Source: a bacterium (GTDB lineage Bacteria > Thermosulfidibacterota > Thermosulfidibacteria > Thermosulfidibacterales > JALWSI01). From it: a stretch of 7,318 bases of DNA. A program made the position numbers and the translations under genes. Positions 1-7,318 of this stretch are shown here, piece by piece. Location: assembly GCA_027080315.1 (NCBI GenBank), contig JALWSI010000078.1, positions 1 through 7,318 of the forward strand, read 5' to 3'. Below the pieces are notes generated by a model. It was given only the letters and a program-made list of their open reading frames with translations, was not told the DNA's origin and ran no database searches. Position 1 is the stretch's first letter; each line of letters opens with the position of its first letter.

Positions 1-1100
1 GAACTATGGCCACCGCAGGTGGATTCAGCGGTCTTTCCAACTGGTTTGGCAACACTCCCTTCTTCCAGATGCCTGGAACTTCAAAGTACCTCTCAACCAC
101 CTCCGCCGCCTTCTTAATGTTCAGCCAGGATCCTCAACTCCAGGCCTTGGCAGCTGCTAAGGGTATAGACCTTCAGAAGGTTTATGCTGGAGACCCTGCA
201 GCTGTTCAGGGCTTTTTGGGATTGGTTGGGGGGCTTGCTTCAACAAATCCCCAGTTTGCTGAGAGCTTGGTGAAGGTACAGGCCTCTCCCATGATAGCCA
301 ATCTTAAAAATGGAAAGATGAAGACCTCGGCTGTTGATGATTTCAACTGGTCATGGAACGCTGGTCTTATCTATAAGATACGTCCAAATCTCCAAATTGG
401 ACTCACCTACAGAGGCCTTACAAAGACCCGTTTCTGGGTGAGAACCCATGTGTACGATGGGAATGGCAACAGGGTTGATTCTGTGAAAGGCCATACATGG
501 GTGGATCATCCTGACCAGATTCAAGGTGGAATCTACTGGAGACCTTTGGACAAGCTACACCTGGAGTTTGACGTCACTTGGACAAACTGGAGCAGAATAG
601 ATCACTACAAGGTAGAGTGGAATCACCCATTGCTCTACGACTACTTCTATAACGGCCTTGTTGAGCAAGGAATGAGCCCAGAGGTGGCCGATCAGTTTGC
701 GAGAAATGCTATTGGCTCAAAGGAGAATTTCAAGCGTCACTGGAGAAATACTGTTCAGTACCGAGTTGGCGCGGAGTATGACCTATTTGACTGGTTGTCC
801 CTCAGAGCTGGCTACTACTACGATCCCACTCCTATTCCAGAACACACAACCGATGTCACTTGGCCAGATGCAGATAAACACACCTTTGCATTTGGTACAG
901 GGCTAAAGCTGCTTGATGGCAAGCTCTTGGTGGATACCACCTATCAGCTTACCAAGACCGATGGAAAGAGACATATAGGGGTTGGTGACAGCGTGAACCT
1001 TGACGACTCTTATGGCAGCGAAGATGAGCATCCCGAGGCCTCAATGACCGGTCATGGGTATGTGCACAACATAACCGTGACCTTCACCTATGTTTTCTGA
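1..1100 (+). CDS. OmpP1/FadL-family outer-membrane transport protein, 5'-truncated by the window edge
   Basis: This is the C-terminal part of a FadL/TodX-type β-barrel, a family that passes long-chain fatty acids or other hydrophobic molecules across the outer membrane. The frame is open to the left edge. The ATG at 6 is probably internal, because no signal peptide follows it and the N-terminal hatch region of the family is missing. About 364 residues are visible. Alternating strands such as NAGLIYKIRPNLQIGLTY (about 119-136) lead to the family-typical segment RAGYYYDPTPIPEHTTDVTWPDAD (read in two parts, about 271-294), where FadL proteins usually have R-A-G-Y-x-Y-D-x-S/T-P-x-P. The last residue is Phe after an aromatic alternating strand, the usual β-barrel assembly signal. 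Two helix-rich stretches (about 45-95 and 215-245) probably lie in extracellular loops. The transported ligand cannot be read from the sequence. The gene converges on the minus-strand operon. Confidence 0.88.
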   Translation, partial: TMATAGGFSGLSNWFGNTPFFQMPGTSKYLSTTSAAFLMFSQDPQLQALAAAKGIDLQKVYAGDPAAVQGFLGLVGGLASTNPQFAESLVKVQASPMIANLKNGKMKTSAVDDFNWSWNAGLIYKIRPNLQIGLTYRGLTKTRFWVRTHVYDGNGNRVDSVKGHTWVDHPDQIQGGIYWRPLDKLHLEFDVTWTNWSRIDHYKVEWNHPLLYDYFYNGLVEQGMSPEVADQFARNAIGSKENFKRHWRNTVQYRVGAEYDLFDWLSLRAGYYYDPTPIPEHTTDVTWPDADKHTFAFGTGLKLLDGKLLVDTTYQLTKTDGKRHIGVGDSVNLDDSYGSEDEHPEASMTGHGYVHNITVTFTYVF

Positions 1101-1121: not shown

Positions 1122-1154
1122 AAGGGGATGGGGGTGTTACTCATCCCCTTTTTT
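1122..1154 (+). terminator. Rho-independent terminator after the FadL-like gene
   Basis: A perfect 9-bp stem (AAGGGGATG at 1122-1130, CATCCCCTT at 1142-1150) encloses an 11-nt loop. The stem's last two T's run on into TTTT, giving six T's at 1149-1154. It starts 21 nt after the FadL-like stop codon. On the minus strand the same stem has no T-tract downstream, so it should work mainly for + transcripts. It could still act as a weak barrier for the convergent operon ending at 1165. Confidence 0.9.
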
Positions 1155-1164
1155 GTTGATAGAT

Positions 1165-2094
1165 TTACCCCTCTTTCCTGATCAAGGAAAGAAAGAATCC
1201 TCCGGTGTCGTTCAGGTGGGGATAGATGCGAAGGGCATTTTTCACCATGGGGTGAAACCTCTGCTCTTCCCACCTTTCTATGCCTTGTCTTGCCGAAAAC
1301 CCTGGAAGCTCAACAGGAATCGTGGAGCATTTGTAGTTTTCCAATAGATACGACACCACCCCTTCGTTTTCTTCAGGGGCCAAGGTGCAGGTTGAATAGA
1401 GGATTAAACCTCCAGGGATGGCTGCTTTGTAGGCGGATACCAAGAGGGCCTTTTGGGTCTCTGTTAGGCGTTTTCGGGCTTTGGGGCTGGGGTCTTGGCT
1501 TGCCCGTGAGTCTTTTCTTATGGTTCCTTCTCCGCTGCATGGACAATCTGCAATAACCTTGTGAAATGTGTTGGGGGTTAATCTGCCGAACCTTCTTCCA
1601 TCCATCTGGGTGATGGTTATGTTTAAGATGCCCATTCGCTCAATGTGGTAGCTTAGGGCTTTAAGCCGCTCTCCACTGACGTCGTTTGCCACAATGACCC
1701 CTTTATTATCCATGTGCTGTGCTGCCTGGGTGGCCTTTGAACCAGGGGCTGAGGCTATGTCAAGAATAAGCTCTTTGGGTTCTGGTTTAAGTATCATAAC
1801 GGGAAGAAGAGAGGCTTCTTCTTGAAGGTAGAATAGGCCTCCAAAGTGGGGAATTGTGTTACCAAGGTTGTTTAAAGGTCCTGATACCCTGGCGGCGTAG
1901 GGGTACCATTCAAGAGGAGTGACTTCAAATCCATCCTCCTCAATCATAGGGAAGACCTCTTTAGGATTGGCTTTAAGGGTGTTACACCTCATCACGGTGG
2001 GTAAGGGGCGCTCACACGCCTTCTGAAACTCCTCAAACTCGTCGCCCAGTAACAGGCGATAGCGCCGTTCTTGCTCAGAAGAGAAAAGGGGCAA
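1165..2094 (-). CDS. NOL1/NOP2/Sun-family RNA cytosine-C5 methyltransferase (RsmB/RsmF-like)
   Basis: A SAM-dependent m5C methyltransferase of 309 aa, acting on rRNA or tRNA in the cytoplasm. Visible motifs are the SAM-binding loop DIASAPGSK (112-120), the acidic motif AND (136-138), MDG (164-166), motif IV DCPCSGEG with Cys186 (183-190), and motif VI YSTCTLAPEENE with the nucleophile Cys236 (233-244). The family-typical end TGGFFLSLIRK is present. An N-terminal segment (about 30-100, with MRCNTLKAN and GLFYLQEEAS) matches the usual pre-catalytic domain. The protein is shorter than RsmB, lacking the NusB-like domain, and shorter than RsmF, lacking the C-terminal extension, so the exact target is unclear. 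The start is a TTG: an in-frame stop lies just upstream, and an AAAGGA sits about 14 nt away inside the end of the cheB-like gene. Only 4 nt separate it from that gene, so it is the last cistron of the operon. Confidence 0.88.
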   Translation of the reverse strand: MPLFSSEQERRYRLLLGDEFEEFQKACERPLPTVMRCNTLKANPKEVFPMIEEDGFEVTPLEWYPYAARVSGPLNNLGNTIPHFGGLFYLQEEASLLPVMILKPEPKELILDIASAPGSKATQAAQHMDNKGVIVANDVSGERLKALSYHIERMGILNITITQMDGRRFGRLTPNTFHKVIADCPCSGEGTIRKDSRASQDPSPKARKRLTETQKALLVSAYKAAIPGGLILYSTCTLAPEENEGVVSYLLENYKCSTIPVELPGFSARQGIERWEEQRFHPMVKNALRIYPHLNDTGGFFLSLIRKEG

Positions 2095-2098
2095 GGGG

Positions 2099-3154
2099 TT
2101 AGCAGGATTCCTTTAATACAGTTTCTGCCAGCTTATCAGGTAGAACACCGCTATCTGCAGCCCCTAAAGCTATGGCCTTCTCTGGCATATCAAAGAGAGG
2201 GCACCCCTCTTTGGCCTGCACGATTGTTCTGGCTCCAGCCTTTTTTAGCCTTGCGAGACCTATGGCTCCATCGTCCACCCCCCCTGAGAGAAGCACCCCT
2301 ATTGCTTTGTCTTTCAGGTTGTTGGCCAGAGAGTTGAACAGAACATCCGCTGATGGACAGCAGTAGCAGTGAAGGCAGGGTCCTTCTCTAAGGCGGATTA
2401 TGGGTTCACCTTTAGCGTTGAGCTCTACTGTGGTGTGCACCCCTGCAGGTGCCACAAAAGCCTTTCCCTTTGAGACTGTATCTCCTTCCTCTGCCTCTTT
2501 AATCTCCATCTCGCTGATTCCGTTAAGAAAATCTGCCAAGGCTTTGGGCAATCCAGGGGGCAGGGTGATGGTAATCACAATGCCTGGCCCGTTGGAGGGT
2601 AGTTGGTTCAGCATTCTGGTAATAAGCCACACTCCGCCTGTTCCTGCTCCAATGCCCACAGTTCTGGTTGGTTGATTCTCAAAGGGAATTGGATTGGGTT
2701 GATCCAAGAGATCGGTATTGACGTATTGCTTTATTACTTCTCTGTCTGTTCTGGCGGCGTTCTCTATTTTTGAGACCACCCCTTTAAGGGTTTTTTCTGA
2801 GTGTTCTCTTATTCTTGCCTTCTCCACGGCTTCCACTGCCCCTGCCTCAAGCACCTTTATGGCCAATGCAGCTGTGTCGGGATAAGAGAAGTTGCCCGTT
2901 ACCACCACGGGAACGGGAGAGTAGCGCATCACCTTTCTGACAAAGGTAACGTGATTCATCTTTGGAGTGTCAAGGTCTAAAATAACAACATCTACTGGCT
3001 TCTCCATACCGCCAAGTAGCATATCTCTTGCTGAGAATGAGTCTGTTGCTACCCCTCTGAGATTGAGAGGAGGGGTCTCTGCAACGGTGTGGGCAAGGCT
3101 GCTTGTCCCTTCCACCTCTGAGGTGATCAAGAGAACATCAAGGCTCTCTGCCAT
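2099..3154 (-). CDS. Degenerate CheB-like protein (receiver plus methylesterase domains, catalytic Ser and His lost)
   Basis: The 351-aa protein has the two-domain plan of CheB, the receptor glutamate methylesterase. The receiver-like domain (about 1-125) keeps the phospho-acceptor position D60 in ILDLDTPKM and K112 after GAVEAVE. The acidic pair after β1 is replaced: VLLITSEV stands where VLVVDDSA is usual. In the methylesterase-like domain (about 163-351), IGAGTGG (168-174) replaces IGASTGG, so the nucleophilic Ser is G171. ITLPPG replaces QHMPPG, so the catalytic His is T197. The Asp of the triad remains (D295 in GGVDDG). Other fold markers are intact: APAGVH (235-240), PSADVLF (267-273) and FDMPEKAI (321-328). 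A cluster C260-x2-C263-x-C265-C266 stands where CheB has an Arg-Pro-Ser segment. I infer a non-catalytic regulator or scaffold. The reading frame is clean with a good Shine-Dalgarno (GGGGGAGAG), so it does not look like a decaying pseudogene. Confidence 0.85.
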   Translation of the reverse strand: MAESLDVLLITSEVEGTSSLAHTVAETPPLNLRGVATDSFSARDMLLGGMEKPVDVVILDLDTPKMNHVTFVRKVMRYSPVPVVVTGNFSYPDTAALAIKVLEAGAVEAVEKARIREHSEKTLKGVVSKIENAARTDREVIKQYVNTDLLDQPNPIPFENQPTRTVGIGAGTGGVWLITRMLNQLPSNGPGIVITITLPPGLPKALADFLNGISEMEIKEAEEGDTVSKGKAFVAPAGVHTTVELNAKGEPIIRLREGPCLHCYCCPSADVLFNSLANNLKDKAIGVLLSGGVDDGAIGLARLKKAGARTIVQAKEGCPLFDMPEKAIALGAADSGVLPDKLAETVLKESC

Positions 3155-3165
3155 AGTCTCTCCCC

Positions 3166-3642
3166 CTAAATCTCTCTTCTCACTGCAAGGTGTACAATAA
3201 ACTTGTCTTCATTGATGTTCTGGAAGAAGACGGTGATGTGGTTAGGATCCTCAAAGTGTAGAGGTGGACATTGGTTTTTTCTTTCTACCTTGGGTATGCT
3301 CAGTTTCCAGTATTCCCCTGTTATGTCTGATAATTTGGTGCTGATGTCCCCTCCCACTATATTAGTGATCTCCCCACACACATCTGCAATCTCAGACTCT
3401 TCAATGGGGTCATCTTCTGTTTTGCCAAGAAAGTCTATGGTAACGTTTTTGGCGAAGTCGCGGGAGATAACCACATCTAAAGTGCCCCATTCTCCGTTGT
3501 TAAACTCTATTCTTCCGTGATAAATGTCATCGCACTCTTCGCAGGGTGGATCTGGACATTCTTCTACAAGAGAGAAGAAGGTTGTGCTGAAAACATTGTA
3601 CACCACCTCAATCAGCATCTTTTCCAAAGCAGCTTTATCCAT
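3166..3642 (-). CDS. cheX: CheX-type CheY-P phosphatase
   Basis: A single-motif member of the CheC/CheX/FliY phosphatases, which dephosphorylate CheY-P to end the signal; 158 aa, normal for CheX. The family catalytic signature D-x3-E-x2-N-x22-P is met exactly by D87, E91, N94 and P117, so it should be active. The ATG at 3642 shares one base with the cheY stop (TGATG), with GGAGG 9 nt upstream. A TTG one codon earlier (3645) is also possible. An unusual feature is the Cys cluster C29-x4-C34-x2-C37 in an acidic, Pro-containing loop near the N-terminus, plus C89 and C125. The position right after cheY fits a regulator with its phosphatase; only an 11-nt gap separates it from the cheB-like gene. 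Confidence 0.88.
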   Translation of the reverse strand: MDKAALEKMLIEVVYNVFSTTFFSLVEECPDPPCEECDDIYHGRIEFNNGEWGTLDVVISRDFAKNVTIDFLGKTEDDPIEESEIADVCGEITNIVGGDISTKLSDITGEYWKLSIPKVERKNQCPPLHFEDPNHITVFFQNINEDKFIVHLAVRREI

Positions 3643-4064
3643 CAAAAGTCTCCTCCTTCTGCCCCTGGTAGCTCTTCTAACTCAAACTCCGCGCCCTCTA
3701 TGTCAAGAAGCACATTGCGCACATCTTCGGGTCTGAAGGGCTTTTTAATGAAAGCATCAACCCCCAAAGAGCGAATCTCCTCCACCTTCTCTTTTGCTCC
3801 CTCAGTAGTCACAACAACTATTGGTACCTCTCTGTAAATAGGATCCTTCTTGGCTTCTCTTATGAAGGTGATGCCGTCCATAACCGGCATGTTTATGTCT
3901 GTGAAGATAATGTCGATCCAGTTCTCCTCCAGTTGCTTCAAGGCTTCCTCTCCGTTGGCGGCCTCGAAGAACTGTGACACATTCAACCCTGATGCGGTCA
4001 CAGCCTTCTTCACAAACTTACGCATGGTGGAGGAGTCATCTACAACAAGCACCTGCAAACCCAT
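3642..4064 (-). CDS. cheY: CheY single-domain response regulator
   Basis: A 140-aa stand-alone receiver with every residue needed for phosphotransfer: acidic pair D9-D10 (VLVVDDS), phospho-acceptor D56 (FTDINMPVMDG), switch Thr T86 (VVVTTEG), Phe105 at the switch-aromatic position, and K108 before Pro in FIKKPF. After the last helix there is a short acidic tail (about 122-140, rich in Glu and Asp) not needed for the receiver fold. The chosen start is the ATG at 4064, which overlaps the HDOD stop by one base (TGATG) and has a near-consensus AAGGAGGTGA 7 nt upstream of it. An adjacent TTG (4067) would add one residue. The cognate kinase (CheA) is not in the window. The neighbouring cheX probably encodes its phosphatase. 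Output could be the flagellar switch or the HDOD protein; the sequence does not decide. Confidence 0.93.
   Translation of the reverse strand: MGLQVLVVDDSSTMRKFVKKAVTASGLNVSQFFEAANGEEALKQLEENWIDIIFTDINMPVMDGITFIREAKKDPIYREVPIVVVTTEGAKEKVEEIRSLGVDAFIKKPFRPEDVRNVLLDIEGAEFELEELPGAEGGDF
3652..3658 (-). promoter_or_regulatory. Shine-Dalgarno for cheX
   Basis: AAGGAGG on the minus strand, inside the last codons of cheY. The GGAGG core is 9 nt from the ATG at 3642 and 6 nt from the TTG at 3645, so both starts are usable. ATG is preferred by codon strength. Confidence 0.65.
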
Positions 4065-4954
4065 CAACTCACCTCCTTATTCCCCTCACCCTCAAGCTCT
4101 TTTTCGCTCTCTTTAAGGGCCTCCACAATATCTACCAAAAACTCTGTCCACAGCTCGCTTCCCTCTTTGTGGGTGAATCCAAGAGCCTCTAAAGCCTTCT
4201 TGTCCAGCTTGTAGGCAAGGCCGTCGCTGCCTGTGCCTATGCCCGTTCCTAATACAAATATGTTGCTTGTATGCACCACTGCAACTATGGGCAGTAGGTG
4301 TTCTGGGGCATTGGCAGGCTCGTGGTGGTACCTTATTGCTGCCACAATCTCTTCAGGAAGCCCCCACTTTTCCGCTATGCGTCCTCCAAGCTCAGCATGA
4401 TCCATTCCAAGCACCTGCTTTTCTGCCTGAAGGAAAGAGACTCTCTCTTTTTTGGGAGACTCCTGTACAATCTTCATAATCTCTTTCACCTGCTCTTGTA
4501 GGTAGAGGCCCAGTATGGTTTTACCAACATCGTGCAATAGGCCTGCGGCATAGGCTACCCCTTGCTCCAAGTTCAGCTTTTCTGCGATCTTTTGAGAAAG
4601 AATGGCTACACATATTCCATGCCTCCACATCTCCTCAGCGGGCACGTCGTAGCCGGGGACGTCCTTCTTGATCTCTCCGGAGGTGTAATGGGTTAGGATT
4701 ATTGAGAGCACTACGCTGTTACCCAGAACCACAAGGGCCTGTTTAAGGTCCTTAACATTGCCGTGGGGGTTGTAGAGGGGAGAGTTTGCCATCTTTAAGA
4801 TCTCCGCAGCCATTCCTGGGTCTTTTGAGACCAGATCTTCTATCTTTGACGCTTCTACGTCTCTTTGCCCCATAAGGGATAGCACCTCATGCACCACAAA
4901 GGGCATGGGTTCTATTTTATCTACCTTCTGAATGACTTCTTCTACAACGCTCAT
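4064..4954 (-). CDS. HDOD-domain signalling protein
   Basis: A 296-aa protein whose N-terminal two thirds (about 10-215) is an HDOD domain, the HD-related domain often found beside response regulators. Family signals are the KDPGMAAEILKMANSPLYNP segment (44-63), LKQALVVLG (70-78) and AAGLLHDVGK (136-145). HD-type metal residues are partly present: H112, H141-D142, H186 and H210/H211. At the usual closing Asp (VHLAD-type motif) the sequence is VHTSN, with N231, so the metal site is probably incomplete, as is common in HDOD proteins. The C-terminal part (about 235-296) is Gly-rich, then helical and acidic, without a domain I recognise. The ATG overlaps the cheD stop by 4 nt (ATGA) with GGGGGAGAAG upstream. 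Known HDOD proteins act in regulatory cascades rather than as proven enzymes; here a scaffold or output role with CheY is inferred. Confidence 0.87.
   Translation of the reverse strand: MSVVEEVIQKVDKIEPMPFVVHEVLSLMGQRDVEASKIEDLVSKDPGMAAEILKMANSPLYNPHGNVKDLKQALVVLGNSVVLSIILTHYTSGEIKKDVPGYDVPAEEMWRHGICVAILSQKIAEKLNLEQGVAYAAGLLHDVGKTILGLYLQEQVKEIMKIVQESPKKERVSFLQAEKQVLGMDHAELGGRIAEKWGLPEEIVAAIRYHHEPANAPEHLLPIVAVVHTSNIFVLGTGIGTGSDGLAYKLDKKALEALGFTHKEGSELWTEFLVDIVEALKESEKELEGEGNKEVS
4069..4078 (-). promoter_or_regulatory. Strong Shine-Dalgarno for cheY
   Basis: AAGGAGGTGA on the minus strand, nearly the full anti-16S complement, lies inside the end of the HDOD gene. Its GGAGG core is 7 nt from the ATG at 4064 and 4 nt from the adjacent TTG at 4067, which favours the ATG. 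It suggests cheY is translated strongly on its own as well as by coupling. Confidence 0.75.
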
Positions 4955-5430
4955 AGTATCTTCTCCCCCATTCCCGGAGACTTTACCGCCACTTTGCCAG
5001 TTGCCAGGTCCAGGCTCAGGCTGCGGCTGATAGTGCCTCCCACGTCTTCCCCGCGAATGAGAATGCCGTTTTTCCAGAAGAGCTTTCTTGCAATCATGTA
5101 GTTTCTCTTTCCGATGTTGAAGTTGCTTTTTGATTCCAGGATCTCTGCCCCCCCGGCGAGTTTCACTATGATGGATCTCTTGTTTGCCCCCTTGGCGTAG
5201 GCTTCTTTGAAGAGCAAAGGGATTCCAGTATCACCGAAGGTGAAGGGATTGGCCTGCGCCTTTGCCTTGTTGAGGGACGATTCCGGTAAGAGGTAGTGCA
5301 GTATTCCTCCCACCTTGGCTTTGGGGTCGTAGATAGCCACCCCTATGCAGGAACCGAGGGCGTGTGTGACTATGATTCCGCTGGTTCCTTGAACCACCTT
5401 CATGTCTGCGATCTTCACAATGTATTGCAT
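4951..5430 (-). CDS. cheD: CheD chemoreceptor glutamine deamidase
   Basis: A 159-aa CheD, which converts specific receptor glutamines to glutamate and in other bacteria also binds CheC-type phosphatases. The catalytic residues known from the Thermotoga protein (Thr, Cys, His) are all present at near-identical spacing: T22 and C28 in VTHALGSCIGV (21-31) and H45 in GILHYLLP. The N-terminal IADMKV and the FGDTGIPLLF segment (in place of the usual Y-x-D-x-A/G-x-P) are also typical. The start at 5430 is fixed by an in-frame TGA four codons upstream (5442-5440). The Shine-Dalgarno-like AGGTGGAG is about 12 nt away, longer than ideal. It is the first gene of the operon, after a 207-nt gap that holds a dyad and a possible promoter. 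Presence of CheD implies methyl-accepting receptors elsewhere in the genome. Confidence 0.93.
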   Translation of the reverse strand: MQYIVKIADMKVVQGTSGIIVTHALGSCIGVAIYDPKAKVGGILHYLLPESSLNKAKAQANPFTFGDTGIPLLFKEAYAKGANKRSIIVKLAGGAEILESKSNFNIGKRNYMIARKLFWKNGILIRGEDVGGTISRSLSLDLATGKVAVKSPGMGEKIL

Positions 5431-5637: not shown

Positions 5638-6969
5638 TTATATCCTGCCTTGGGTCCACTCTGAGATGCGGGCCTCCCACCATCTGGCTTTTTCTAACAC
5701 CTCTTCTTCGTCCAAGGCCTCTATGATGCCGTCTCGCATGATCACCTTTCCTCCCATCACCACATCGCTTATGTCTCCAGAGCTTGCTGCGTATGCGAGA
5801 TGAGATATGGGATCGTAGATGGGGGTGAGGTGTGGAGCAGAGGCATCAAACACCAGAATATCAGCCCTTTTGCCCACCTCAATGCTTCCGGTGTTTTCAA
5901 ATAGCAAGGCCTTTGCGCCGTTACAGGTGGCCATCTTTAAAACCTCTTTGGCTGGCATGATGGAAGGATCTCCTGAGACTCCTTTTTGAACCATGGCCAG
6001 TGTTGAGACCTCGTCAAGCATGTGGAGGTTGTTGTTGCTGGCGGCTCCATCTGTGCCTATTGATAGCAGAACCCCCTTTGCTGCCATCTTTGCCACAGGT
6101 GCTATGCCATTGCCCAGCTTCAGGTTGCTTTGGATGCAGATGGAGACCCCGGTTTCCCTTCTGGTCAGTATCTCTATCTCTCTTTCAGAGGGCTTCACCA
6201 CGTGGGCCAGTATCGTTGGGCCCTCAAAAACACCTTTCTCTTCAAGAAGCTCAATGGGGGGTAATCCATAGCGGGACGATACCTCTTCCACCTCCCAGGT
6301 GTTTTCGCTTGCATGGGTATGAAGCAGAAGGCCCATGCTTTTGGCCAGCTCTGAGGCCATCACCAGGGTTTCGGGAGAACAGGTGTAGGTTGCGTGGGGA
6401 CAGATGGCTATCTTGATGTGGGGGTGACCCTGGAATCTCTCGGCCATCCTCTTTGCCCGTTTCAGGTAGTCTTCGGGGCCGTTGCCCATCTTGCTGGGAA
6501 AGTCAAACACCCCCATACCCAGCACAGCGTTCATTCTAACCTTCTCAAGCACAGGCACGCTCTCTTCAAGGTAGAAGTACATATCGTTGTAGAGCACTGT
6601 CCCCGACCTTATCATCTCTACCACTGCCAAGGCCGTTGCATCCCTAACAAACTCAGGGGATAGCCATGTGGACTCTGCCGGCCAGATATGCCGCTTAAGC
6701 CAGGTGTCTAAGGGTAGATCGTCTGCCATGCCTCTAAAGAAGACCATTGGGGCATGGGTGTGGGTGTTCACGAAACCGGGAGAGACTATTCCGTGGGGGC
6801 GAGAGATCTTCTCTTTGGCGTGCCAGCTCTTCTCAATCTCCTGGGTTGGCCTCACCGCCACGATCTCTCCGTTGTGAACTACAACGCTCCCTTGCTGGAT
6901 AACCCTATCCAGCTTGTTGGCAAGTACGAACCTGCCCTCAACTATGAGGTCTGCTTCTCTCTTCTCCAT
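5638..6969 (-). CDS. mtaD: 5'-methylthioadenosine/S-adenosylhomocysteine deaminase (amidohydrolase family)
   Basis: A 443-aa cytoplasmic zinc amidohydrolase of the TrzA/MtaD group, which deaminates methylthioadenosine and/or S-adenosylhomocysteine to the inosine forms, recycling products of SAM use. Numbering from the ATG at 6969, zinc and catalytic residues are H70-x-H72 (NTHTHAPM), H217 and H219 with E222 (LHTHASE) and D307 (GTDGAASNNN). H192 lies in the CPHATYTCS segment, and E99 in a W-P-A-E segment fits the ribose-contacting Glu of the family. SNLKLGNGIAPV (281-292) is highly diagnostic. The frame extends upstream to a TTG at 7044, but that would add 25 unconserved residues and overlap the preceding gene's end, so the ATG is preferred. 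Its AGGAG is 15 nt away, longer than usual. It lies about 50 nt downstream of the pilin-like gene and may share its transcript. Confidence 0.88.
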   Translation of the reverse strand: MEKREADLIVEGRFVLANKLDRVIQQGSVVVHNGEIVAVRPTQEIEKSWHAKEKISRPHGIVSPGFVNTHTHAPMVFFRGMADDLPLDTWLKRHIWPAESTWLSPEFVRDATALAVVEMIRSGTVLYNDMYFYLEESVPVLEKVRMNAVLGMGVFDFPSKMGNGPEDYLKRAKRMAERFQGHPHIKIAICPHATYTCSPETLVMASELAKSMGLLLHTHASENTWEVEEVSSRYGLPPIELLEEKGVFEGPTILAHVVKPSEREIEILTRRETGVSICIQSNLKLGNGIAPVAKMAAKGVLLSIGTDGAASNNNLHMLDEVSTLAMVQKGVSGDPSIMPAKEVLKMATCNGAKALLFENTGSIEVGKRADILVFDASAPHLTPIYDPISHLAYAASSGDISDVVMGGKVIMRDGIIEALDEEEVLEKARWWEARISEWTQGRI

Positions 6970-7019
6970 TGGTTTTGGTTCGATCTCCTGAAGATGTTTG
7001 TATACACTAAATGTTATGG

Positions 7020-7318
7020 TTATGGGTGGTGTGGGGGCCACCAATGGGAACCTGTCCCTACATGAGAGCCCAATCCGTTTCCCCGCCCGTTGTGTTTGCC
7101 TGGATTGTTACCACTTCCTCCAGTGGAACCGCCGCTGCTGCTACCACCGCTACCTCCATCACTCACCCACCAAGAGATGCTAATCTTCACGTCGTCTCCG
7201 TCAGTGGAAGGATCGTCTCCATCGCTATAGATAATTCCCCAACACTTATCGCTGGATACGAGACCGAAGGAACCAGCTTTTAGAGGGCGTTGCCATGCGT
7301 CTTGGCCGCTGAGGTTAT
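7020..7318 (-). CDS. C-terminal part of a pilin/pseudopilin-like exported protein with Gly/Ser linker and Trp/His-rich tail (partial)
   Basis: The frame enters at the right edge and runs 98 codons to a TAA at 7022-7020; the start lies outside the window. The visible part begins NLSGQDAWQRPL and continues through SSDKCWGIIYSDGDDPSTD to DDVKISISWWV (about 41-51). The order D-x-W-x-R-P, then S-S, then an Asp/Gly-rich turn before D-D-V-x-I resembles the C-terminal region of type II secretion pseudopilins and type IV pilin-like proteins, where such Asp/Gly turns can bind calcium. From about residue 53 it changes to a Gly/Ser-rich linker (53-70), then a basic, Gly/Asn-rich stretch, and ends in a Trp/His/Pro-rich tail, SHWWPPHHP. 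I do not recognise this tail. Low-complexity coding on one strand with no stop over 98 codons, and a stop well placed before mtaD, support a real gene. The pilin assignment is inference. Confidence 0.6.
   Translation of the reverse strand, partial: NLSGQDAWQRPLKAGSFGLVSSDKCWGIIYSDGDDPSTDGDDVKISISWWVSDGGSGGSSSGGSTGGSGNNPGKHNGRGNGLGSHVGTGSHWWPPHHP

Follow-up and report, generated by a model that had tools for sequence, protein, structure and literature searches.

CheB normally strips methyl groups from chemotaxis receptors, a methylester hydrolysis that requires a Ser-His-Asp triad, and to our knowledge CheB is taken to be an enzyme wherever it is annotated. Laboratory and archaeal work on CheB also describes contacts: the Salmonella CheB variant S164A binds the receptor body with an affinity unchanged from that of the active form (PMC8609364), and Halobacterium CheB interacts with CheD and with a CheC-family protein (PMC3579733). 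Here we describe a natural CheB homologue, which we call CheB1, whose residues at the catalytic and phosphorylation sites suggest that both activities have been lost. CheB1 is known so far from one draft assembly (1.84 Mb in 253 contigs) and is encoded on the minus strand at 2099..3154 of contig C78, the whole 7,318-nucleotide stretch of DNA that was analysed and that we refer to as the window. The open reading frame begins with ATG, contains no internal stop codons and specifies a protein of 351 amino acids, made up of a putative pseudo-receiver and a putative pseudo-methylesterase domain.

A sequence-only reading of the window had placed this gene in a tight operon, and it indeed lies 11 nt 3' of cheX in the minus-strand order cheD-HDOD-cheY-cheX-cheB1, in which cheD (4951..5430), the gene for an HDOD-domain protein (4064..4954), cheY (3642..4067) and cheX, encoding a CheC/CheX family phosphatase (3166..3645), are joined by 4-nt overlaps. 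CheD retains Thr22, Cys28 and His45, which line up with the motif residues of the T. maritima protein (2f9z), CheX carries its ExxN motif (E92/N95) and CheY the full phosphorylation quintet (D10, D11, D57, T88 and K109), so that the neighbours of CheB1 look active. A gene for an RsmB/F-type rRNA methyltransferase (1165..2094, minus strand) starts 4 nt after the CheB1 stop codon and is possibly co-transcribed with it, although it is not part of the chemotaxis function. Further out, the window holds a fragment of a FadL/TodX-family outer membrane protein gene (6-1100, plus strand), a strong terminator-like hairpin with a T tail (1122-1150, plus strand) between this gene and the convergent methyltransferase gene, and an amidohydrolase gene (5638-7044, minus strand) that found no match at E<=1e-30 in eight order mates.

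To place the residues of CheB1, we used a phmmer alignment to solved CheB structures, mapped residue by residue on Salmonella CheB (1a2o); the triad of P. atrosepticum CheB, S165-H191-D287, agrees with this register (PMC7698151). On the 1a2o register the nucleophile Ser164 corresponds to Gly171 (codon at 2642..2644, minus strand) and the catalytic His190 to Thr197 (2564..2566, minus strand), whereas the catalytic Asp286 is kept as Asp295 (2270..2272, minus strand) and T165 as T172. The triad thus reads G171/T197/D295, exactly as had been proposed from the letters of the DNA, and the proposed loss of Ser and His holds against characterised CheB proteins. In addition, Gly292 (2279..2281, minus strand) occupies the position of Met283, the oxyanion-hole methionine of CheB. 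The loss is broader than first recognised: CheB1 alters 9 of the 19 catalytic-domain columns that are invariant in 39 relatives (S171G, Q196I, H197T, F202L, G237A, T290S, M292G, G293V and G322D), mostly catalytic residues and the motifs surrounding them, whereas the columns it retains (G173, G174, P199, G230, P267, G291, D295, G296, M323 and P324) are mostly Gly/Pro scaffold. Judging by the motifs in which they fall, the altered columns would cluster in space. Over all strongly conserved catalytic-domain columns, CheB1 deviates at 15 of 39, compared to 0-9 for other members. A different Ser/His pair that might occupy the active site was sought in the same alignment and none was seen: no Ser or His is aligned at either catalytic position, and the remaining serines (S187, S214, S228, S268, S275, S290, S335 and S350) and histidines (H240 and H262) lie elsewhere.

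The receiver domain has changed as well. Thr11-Ser12 (3119..3124, minus strand) replace the acidic pair of the Mg2+ site and Gly87 (2894..2896, minus strand) replaces the conserved beta4 Ser/Thr, as seen in the alignment and in the domain survey described below, whereas the phospho-acceptor position, Asp60 (2975..2977, minus strand), and K112 are kept; the missing acidic pair and the surviving D60 had both been read correctly from the sequence. Measured against the receiver quintet (DD, D, S/T, K), CheB1 therefore shows T11 S12 D60 G87 K112, with three of the five phosphorylation residues lost (D11T, D12S and S87G), which strengthens the earlier suggestion that this receiver may not respond to phosphorylation in the usual way. 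Conserved receiver columns deviate at 16 of 33 positions in CheB1 and at 0-6 in other members.

How unusual this combination is was assessed in a survey of 148 unique catalytic domains, pooled from a 386-genome set and other searches and sampled by similarity to CheB1, so that proteins sharing its losses should turn up there. The other 147 domains all carry Ser-His-Asp, Gly-Thr-Asp occurs in CheB1 only, and its receiver pattern TSDGK recurs in none of the 138 other domains with a covered receiver. Judged by these alignments, the residue losses of CheB1 are neither chance nor common variation. An orthologue with the same losses was likewise not found in the eight order mates (in two of which the only CheB is distant and belongs to a different group), in the 386-genome set, or in the class of L091 and the phylum of L090, two genomes whose related gene clusters are considered below. 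Named bacterial genomes gave nine matches to CheB1, all rhizobial and all intact, with no same-loss orthologue among them, and among the plasmid matches, judged by identity, none stood out as an orthologue, all of them falling below 60%. Within the genomes covered, the search for homologues with the same Gly/Thr substitutions leaves CheB1 standing alone.

Despite these losses CheB1 is recognisably a CheB by fold. Pfam CheB_methylest matches it with 152.3 bits against a cut-off of 24, it falls under both NCBIfam CheB cut-offs (213.6 against 342 and 208.9 against 293 bits), and a second CheB of the same genome, CheB2, passes the NCBIfam NF001965 cut-off with 393.8 bits. CheB1 is thus a CheB homologue by fold that is without the defining enzymatic features and under both NCBIfam cut-offs, and for these reasons is unfit for annotation as a methylesterase. 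AlphaFold2 confidently predicted a full-length, two-domain CheB fold (pLDDT 92.7, pTM 0.91), for which the closest structure was 1a2o (Foldseek TM 0.89; DALI-like Z 45.1, rmsd 1.9 over 339 residues); as the input alignment consisted of intact CheBs, the model speaks for compatibility with the fold and is not proof of folding. CheB1 therefore fits the description of a pseudoenzyme, an enzyme homologue without catalytic residues whose frame and predicted fold are maintained, and its sequence strongly supports the view that it is a doubly dead pseudo-CheB.

The suggestion to look for an intact cheB elsewhere in the genome led to CheB2, encoded on contig C161 (L033) in the operon cheW-cheB-cheR-cheA, with an intact Ser-His-Asp triad and a receiver acidic pair. 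A PF01584 search of the genome returned one CheW and one CheA, both from this operon, counts that apply to the assembled part of a genome estimated to be 94% complete, and seven receptor matches exceeded the cut-off. By its gene content, CheB1 would therefore coexist with one kinase system and an intact second CheB. None of the six MCPs whose C-termini were read (L118-L123) ends in an NWETF-like pentapeptide, so that tethering of CheR and CheB of the E. coli type is not expected; the idea that CheB1 acts as a competitor for such a pentapeptide is accordingly not favoured.

The gene order cheD-HDOD-cheY-cheX-cheB is shared with L090 and with L091, where cheA-cheW-mcp-cheR precede it, and L092 has the variant order cheR-cheD-cheY-cheX-cheB-HDOD; the cluster CheBs of all three have intact triads. 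Conservation of cheR-cheD-HDOD-cheY-cheX-cheB, or of cheR-cheD-cheY-cheX-cheB-HDOD, in unrelated lineages links the HDOD protein with CheX-type chemotaxis, and in the open-access literature we found no paper naming CheB, CheX, CheD and HDOD together. The three cluster CheBs are 53-60% identical to one another and 34-35% identical to CheB1. For the other proteins, the window differs from the clusters about as much as the clusters differ among themselves (CheD, 50-55% versus 45-52%; CheY, 40-48% versus 38-46%; HDOD, 29-38% versus 30-35%), CheX being poorly conserved everywhere, and this normal divergence of CheD, CheY and HDOD confines the acceleration to CheB1, whose end branch in the tree measures 4.83 against a median of 0.49. 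CheB1 falls within a 36-row group that holds the L090, L091 and L092 CheBs (SH-aLRT 95), with CheB2 in a different group; because long branches meet, its exact sister is unsure, and its placement rests on this group and on synteny. Neither CheX nor CheB1 of the window has a counterpart in the eight order mates, and the operon may or may not have been acquired by transfer. The residue losses, the synteny and the second CheB are matters of observation; as to the order of events, CheB1 would descend from a working CheB of a full cheA-cheW-mcp-cheR-cheD-HDOD-cheY-cheX-cheB cluster, the catalytic Ser and His, the oxyanion Met and the receiver Mg2+ site having presumably been lost in its own lineage, after or alongside a takeover of receptor demethylation by CheB2.

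An accelerated, redundant gene could simply be decaying, the second CheB having freed this copy from constraint and a stop codon not having been acquired yet. The intact CheB2, the CheB-specific acceleration, the loss of conserved positions in both domains and the failure to find CheB1 in relatives would all fit such decay. We therefore simulated neutral drift to 35% identity, starting from cluster CheB genes or from CheB1 itself and not counting indels: the simulated genes accumulated a mean of ~10-11 in-frame stops, with at least two in every one of the 900 runs, and CheB1 has none, so that its frame must have been maintained through most of its divergence. Even drift to 60% identity left only 3 of 900 runs free of stops. 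Scaffold columns, among them G173, G174, P199, G230, P267, G291, G296, M323 and P324, are also all kept, a confident full-length fold is predicted, the gene still sits tightly behind cheX, and its codon-position GC lies within the range of the neighbouring genes. The simulation argues against simple decay without identifying a function, and it supports the earlier proposal that an intact frame favours selection over decay. An intact gene with a kept fold points to selection for something other than hydrolysis, although with a single sequence and no same-loss orthologue this selection is not measurable by dN/dS. Taken together, we regard mere decay as unlikely, if still deserving of attention.

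A second alternative is that CheB1 has acquired a new chemistry. In place of the family PxVxxHRPS loop, its catalytic domain contains, with a one-residue insertion, the patch C260-L-H-C263-Y-C265-C266 (2357..2377, minus strand), in which C260, C263, C265 and C266, together with H262, might bind a metal or an iron-sulphur cluster or form a redox switch, in which case CheB1 would serve the chemotaxis array as an adaptor that senses redox state or metal. Within CLHCYCC, which replaces a conserved motif, four of the seven residues are cysteines, in contrast with at most one cysteine in the same loop of the 39 relatives in the 40-sequence alignment, and a metal or redox role for the patch is conceivable. 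Against this, the loop is predicted with lower confidence than its surroundings (mean pLDDT 83 for residues 261-270), and the cysteine pattern comes from a single sequence, for which conservation cannot be shown. We consider such a chemistry doubtful, and hold to be improbable the more elaborate version in which the catalytic domain was rebuilt around a four-Cys centre to yield an adaptor, independent of phosphorylation, that would sense redox state or metal and so tune receptor adaptation in a chemotaxis system with a single CheA.

It is very unlikely that CheB1 still hydrolyses esters or amides through a rearranged active site, for example with S290, H240 or a Cys nucleophile. In favour of such activity, the glycine motif is kept, as are Asp295, Thr172 and H240, and the domain has gained cysteines. 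Against it, CheB1 has lost the nucleophile, the general base, the Gln adjoining that base and the oxyanion Met; S290 stands where the family has Thr, at a position other than that of the nucleophile, and neither catalytic position is aligned with Ser or His. An artefact of assembly, binning or sequencing, which the fragmented assembly with its 2.8% estimated contamination, the single instance of CheB1 and the flanking amidohydrolase and CheX genes unmatched in the order mates might suggest, can likewise be given little credence, as the contig is ordinary in composition (GC 0.497; tetranucleotide correlation 0.756, other contigs 0.66-0.89), which makes contamination unlikely, more than 12 non-synonymous changes at conserved sites in an open frame cannot be miscalls, and CheB1 would be equally unusual had the contig come from another genome.

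We favour the reading, to which we assign a probability of roughly 0.55, that CheB1, degenerate in both of its domains, has been retained because it takes part in receptor adaptation by binding and not as an enzyme. Structure alignment, the 148-domain survey, the predicted fold, CheB2 and a frame left open where neutral drift would have closed it all support the pseudo-enzyme view already taken in the sequence-only reading, whereas the alteration of nearly half of the conserved receiver columns fits relaxed constraint as well as it fits a new role. With a kept CheB fold that would neither cut nor be switched by phosphate, CheB1 should act by binding, and receptors, CheD or CheX are candidate partners by analogy, a role made plausible by the receptor binding of S164A (PMC8609364) and by the contacts of Halobacterium CheB (PMC3579733). 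CheB1 may bind receptor modification helices, CheD or CheX, or several of these, without cutting, and would do so constitutively, because its receiver should not be phosphate-switchable. When bound, it might shield methyl and amide sites from CheB2 and CheD; alternatively, it could act as a scaffold on which CheD, CheX and CheY, as a module of the one CheA system, are held together.

Compared to the CheB methylesterase/deamidases of Salmonella (1a2o), P. atrosepticum (6ymz) and T. maritima (3sft), CheB1 has the same two-domain architecture and predicted fold, the same position in a che operon, the triad Asp and the phospho-acceptor Asp, but lacks the catalytic Ser and His, the Gln before the His, the oxyanion Met, the receiver acidic pair and the beta4 Ser, has an extra four-Cys patch and scores under both NCBIfam cut-offs. 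With the cluster CheBs of L090, L091 and L092 it shares the neighbourhood (cheD, HDOD, cheY, cheX, cheB) and the broad CheB group, but those proteins are intact and far closer to one another than to CheB1; with CheB2 it shares family and genome, but CheB2 has kept its triad and acidic pair, belongs to another CheB group and passes an NCBIfam cut-off. Titles and abstracts of the open-access papers searched yielded no natural pseudo-CheB or CheB pseudoenzyme. The nearest counterpart is the laboratory variant S164A, in which the catalytic Ser is also replaced by a small residue and which is folded and binds the receptor body (PMC8609364); S164A is an engineered single change, whereas CheB1 is natural and has, by its sequence, lost the chemistry of both catalysis and the phosphorylation site. 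A natural CheB without enzyme and switch, beside an intact CheD, CheX and CheY and backed by CheB2, would mean that the binding role has been separated from catalysis in evolution. CheB1 offers a direct test of a non-catalytic part for CheB in adaptation, and it calls for care in automated annotation and wherever a model relies on the number of CheB genes.
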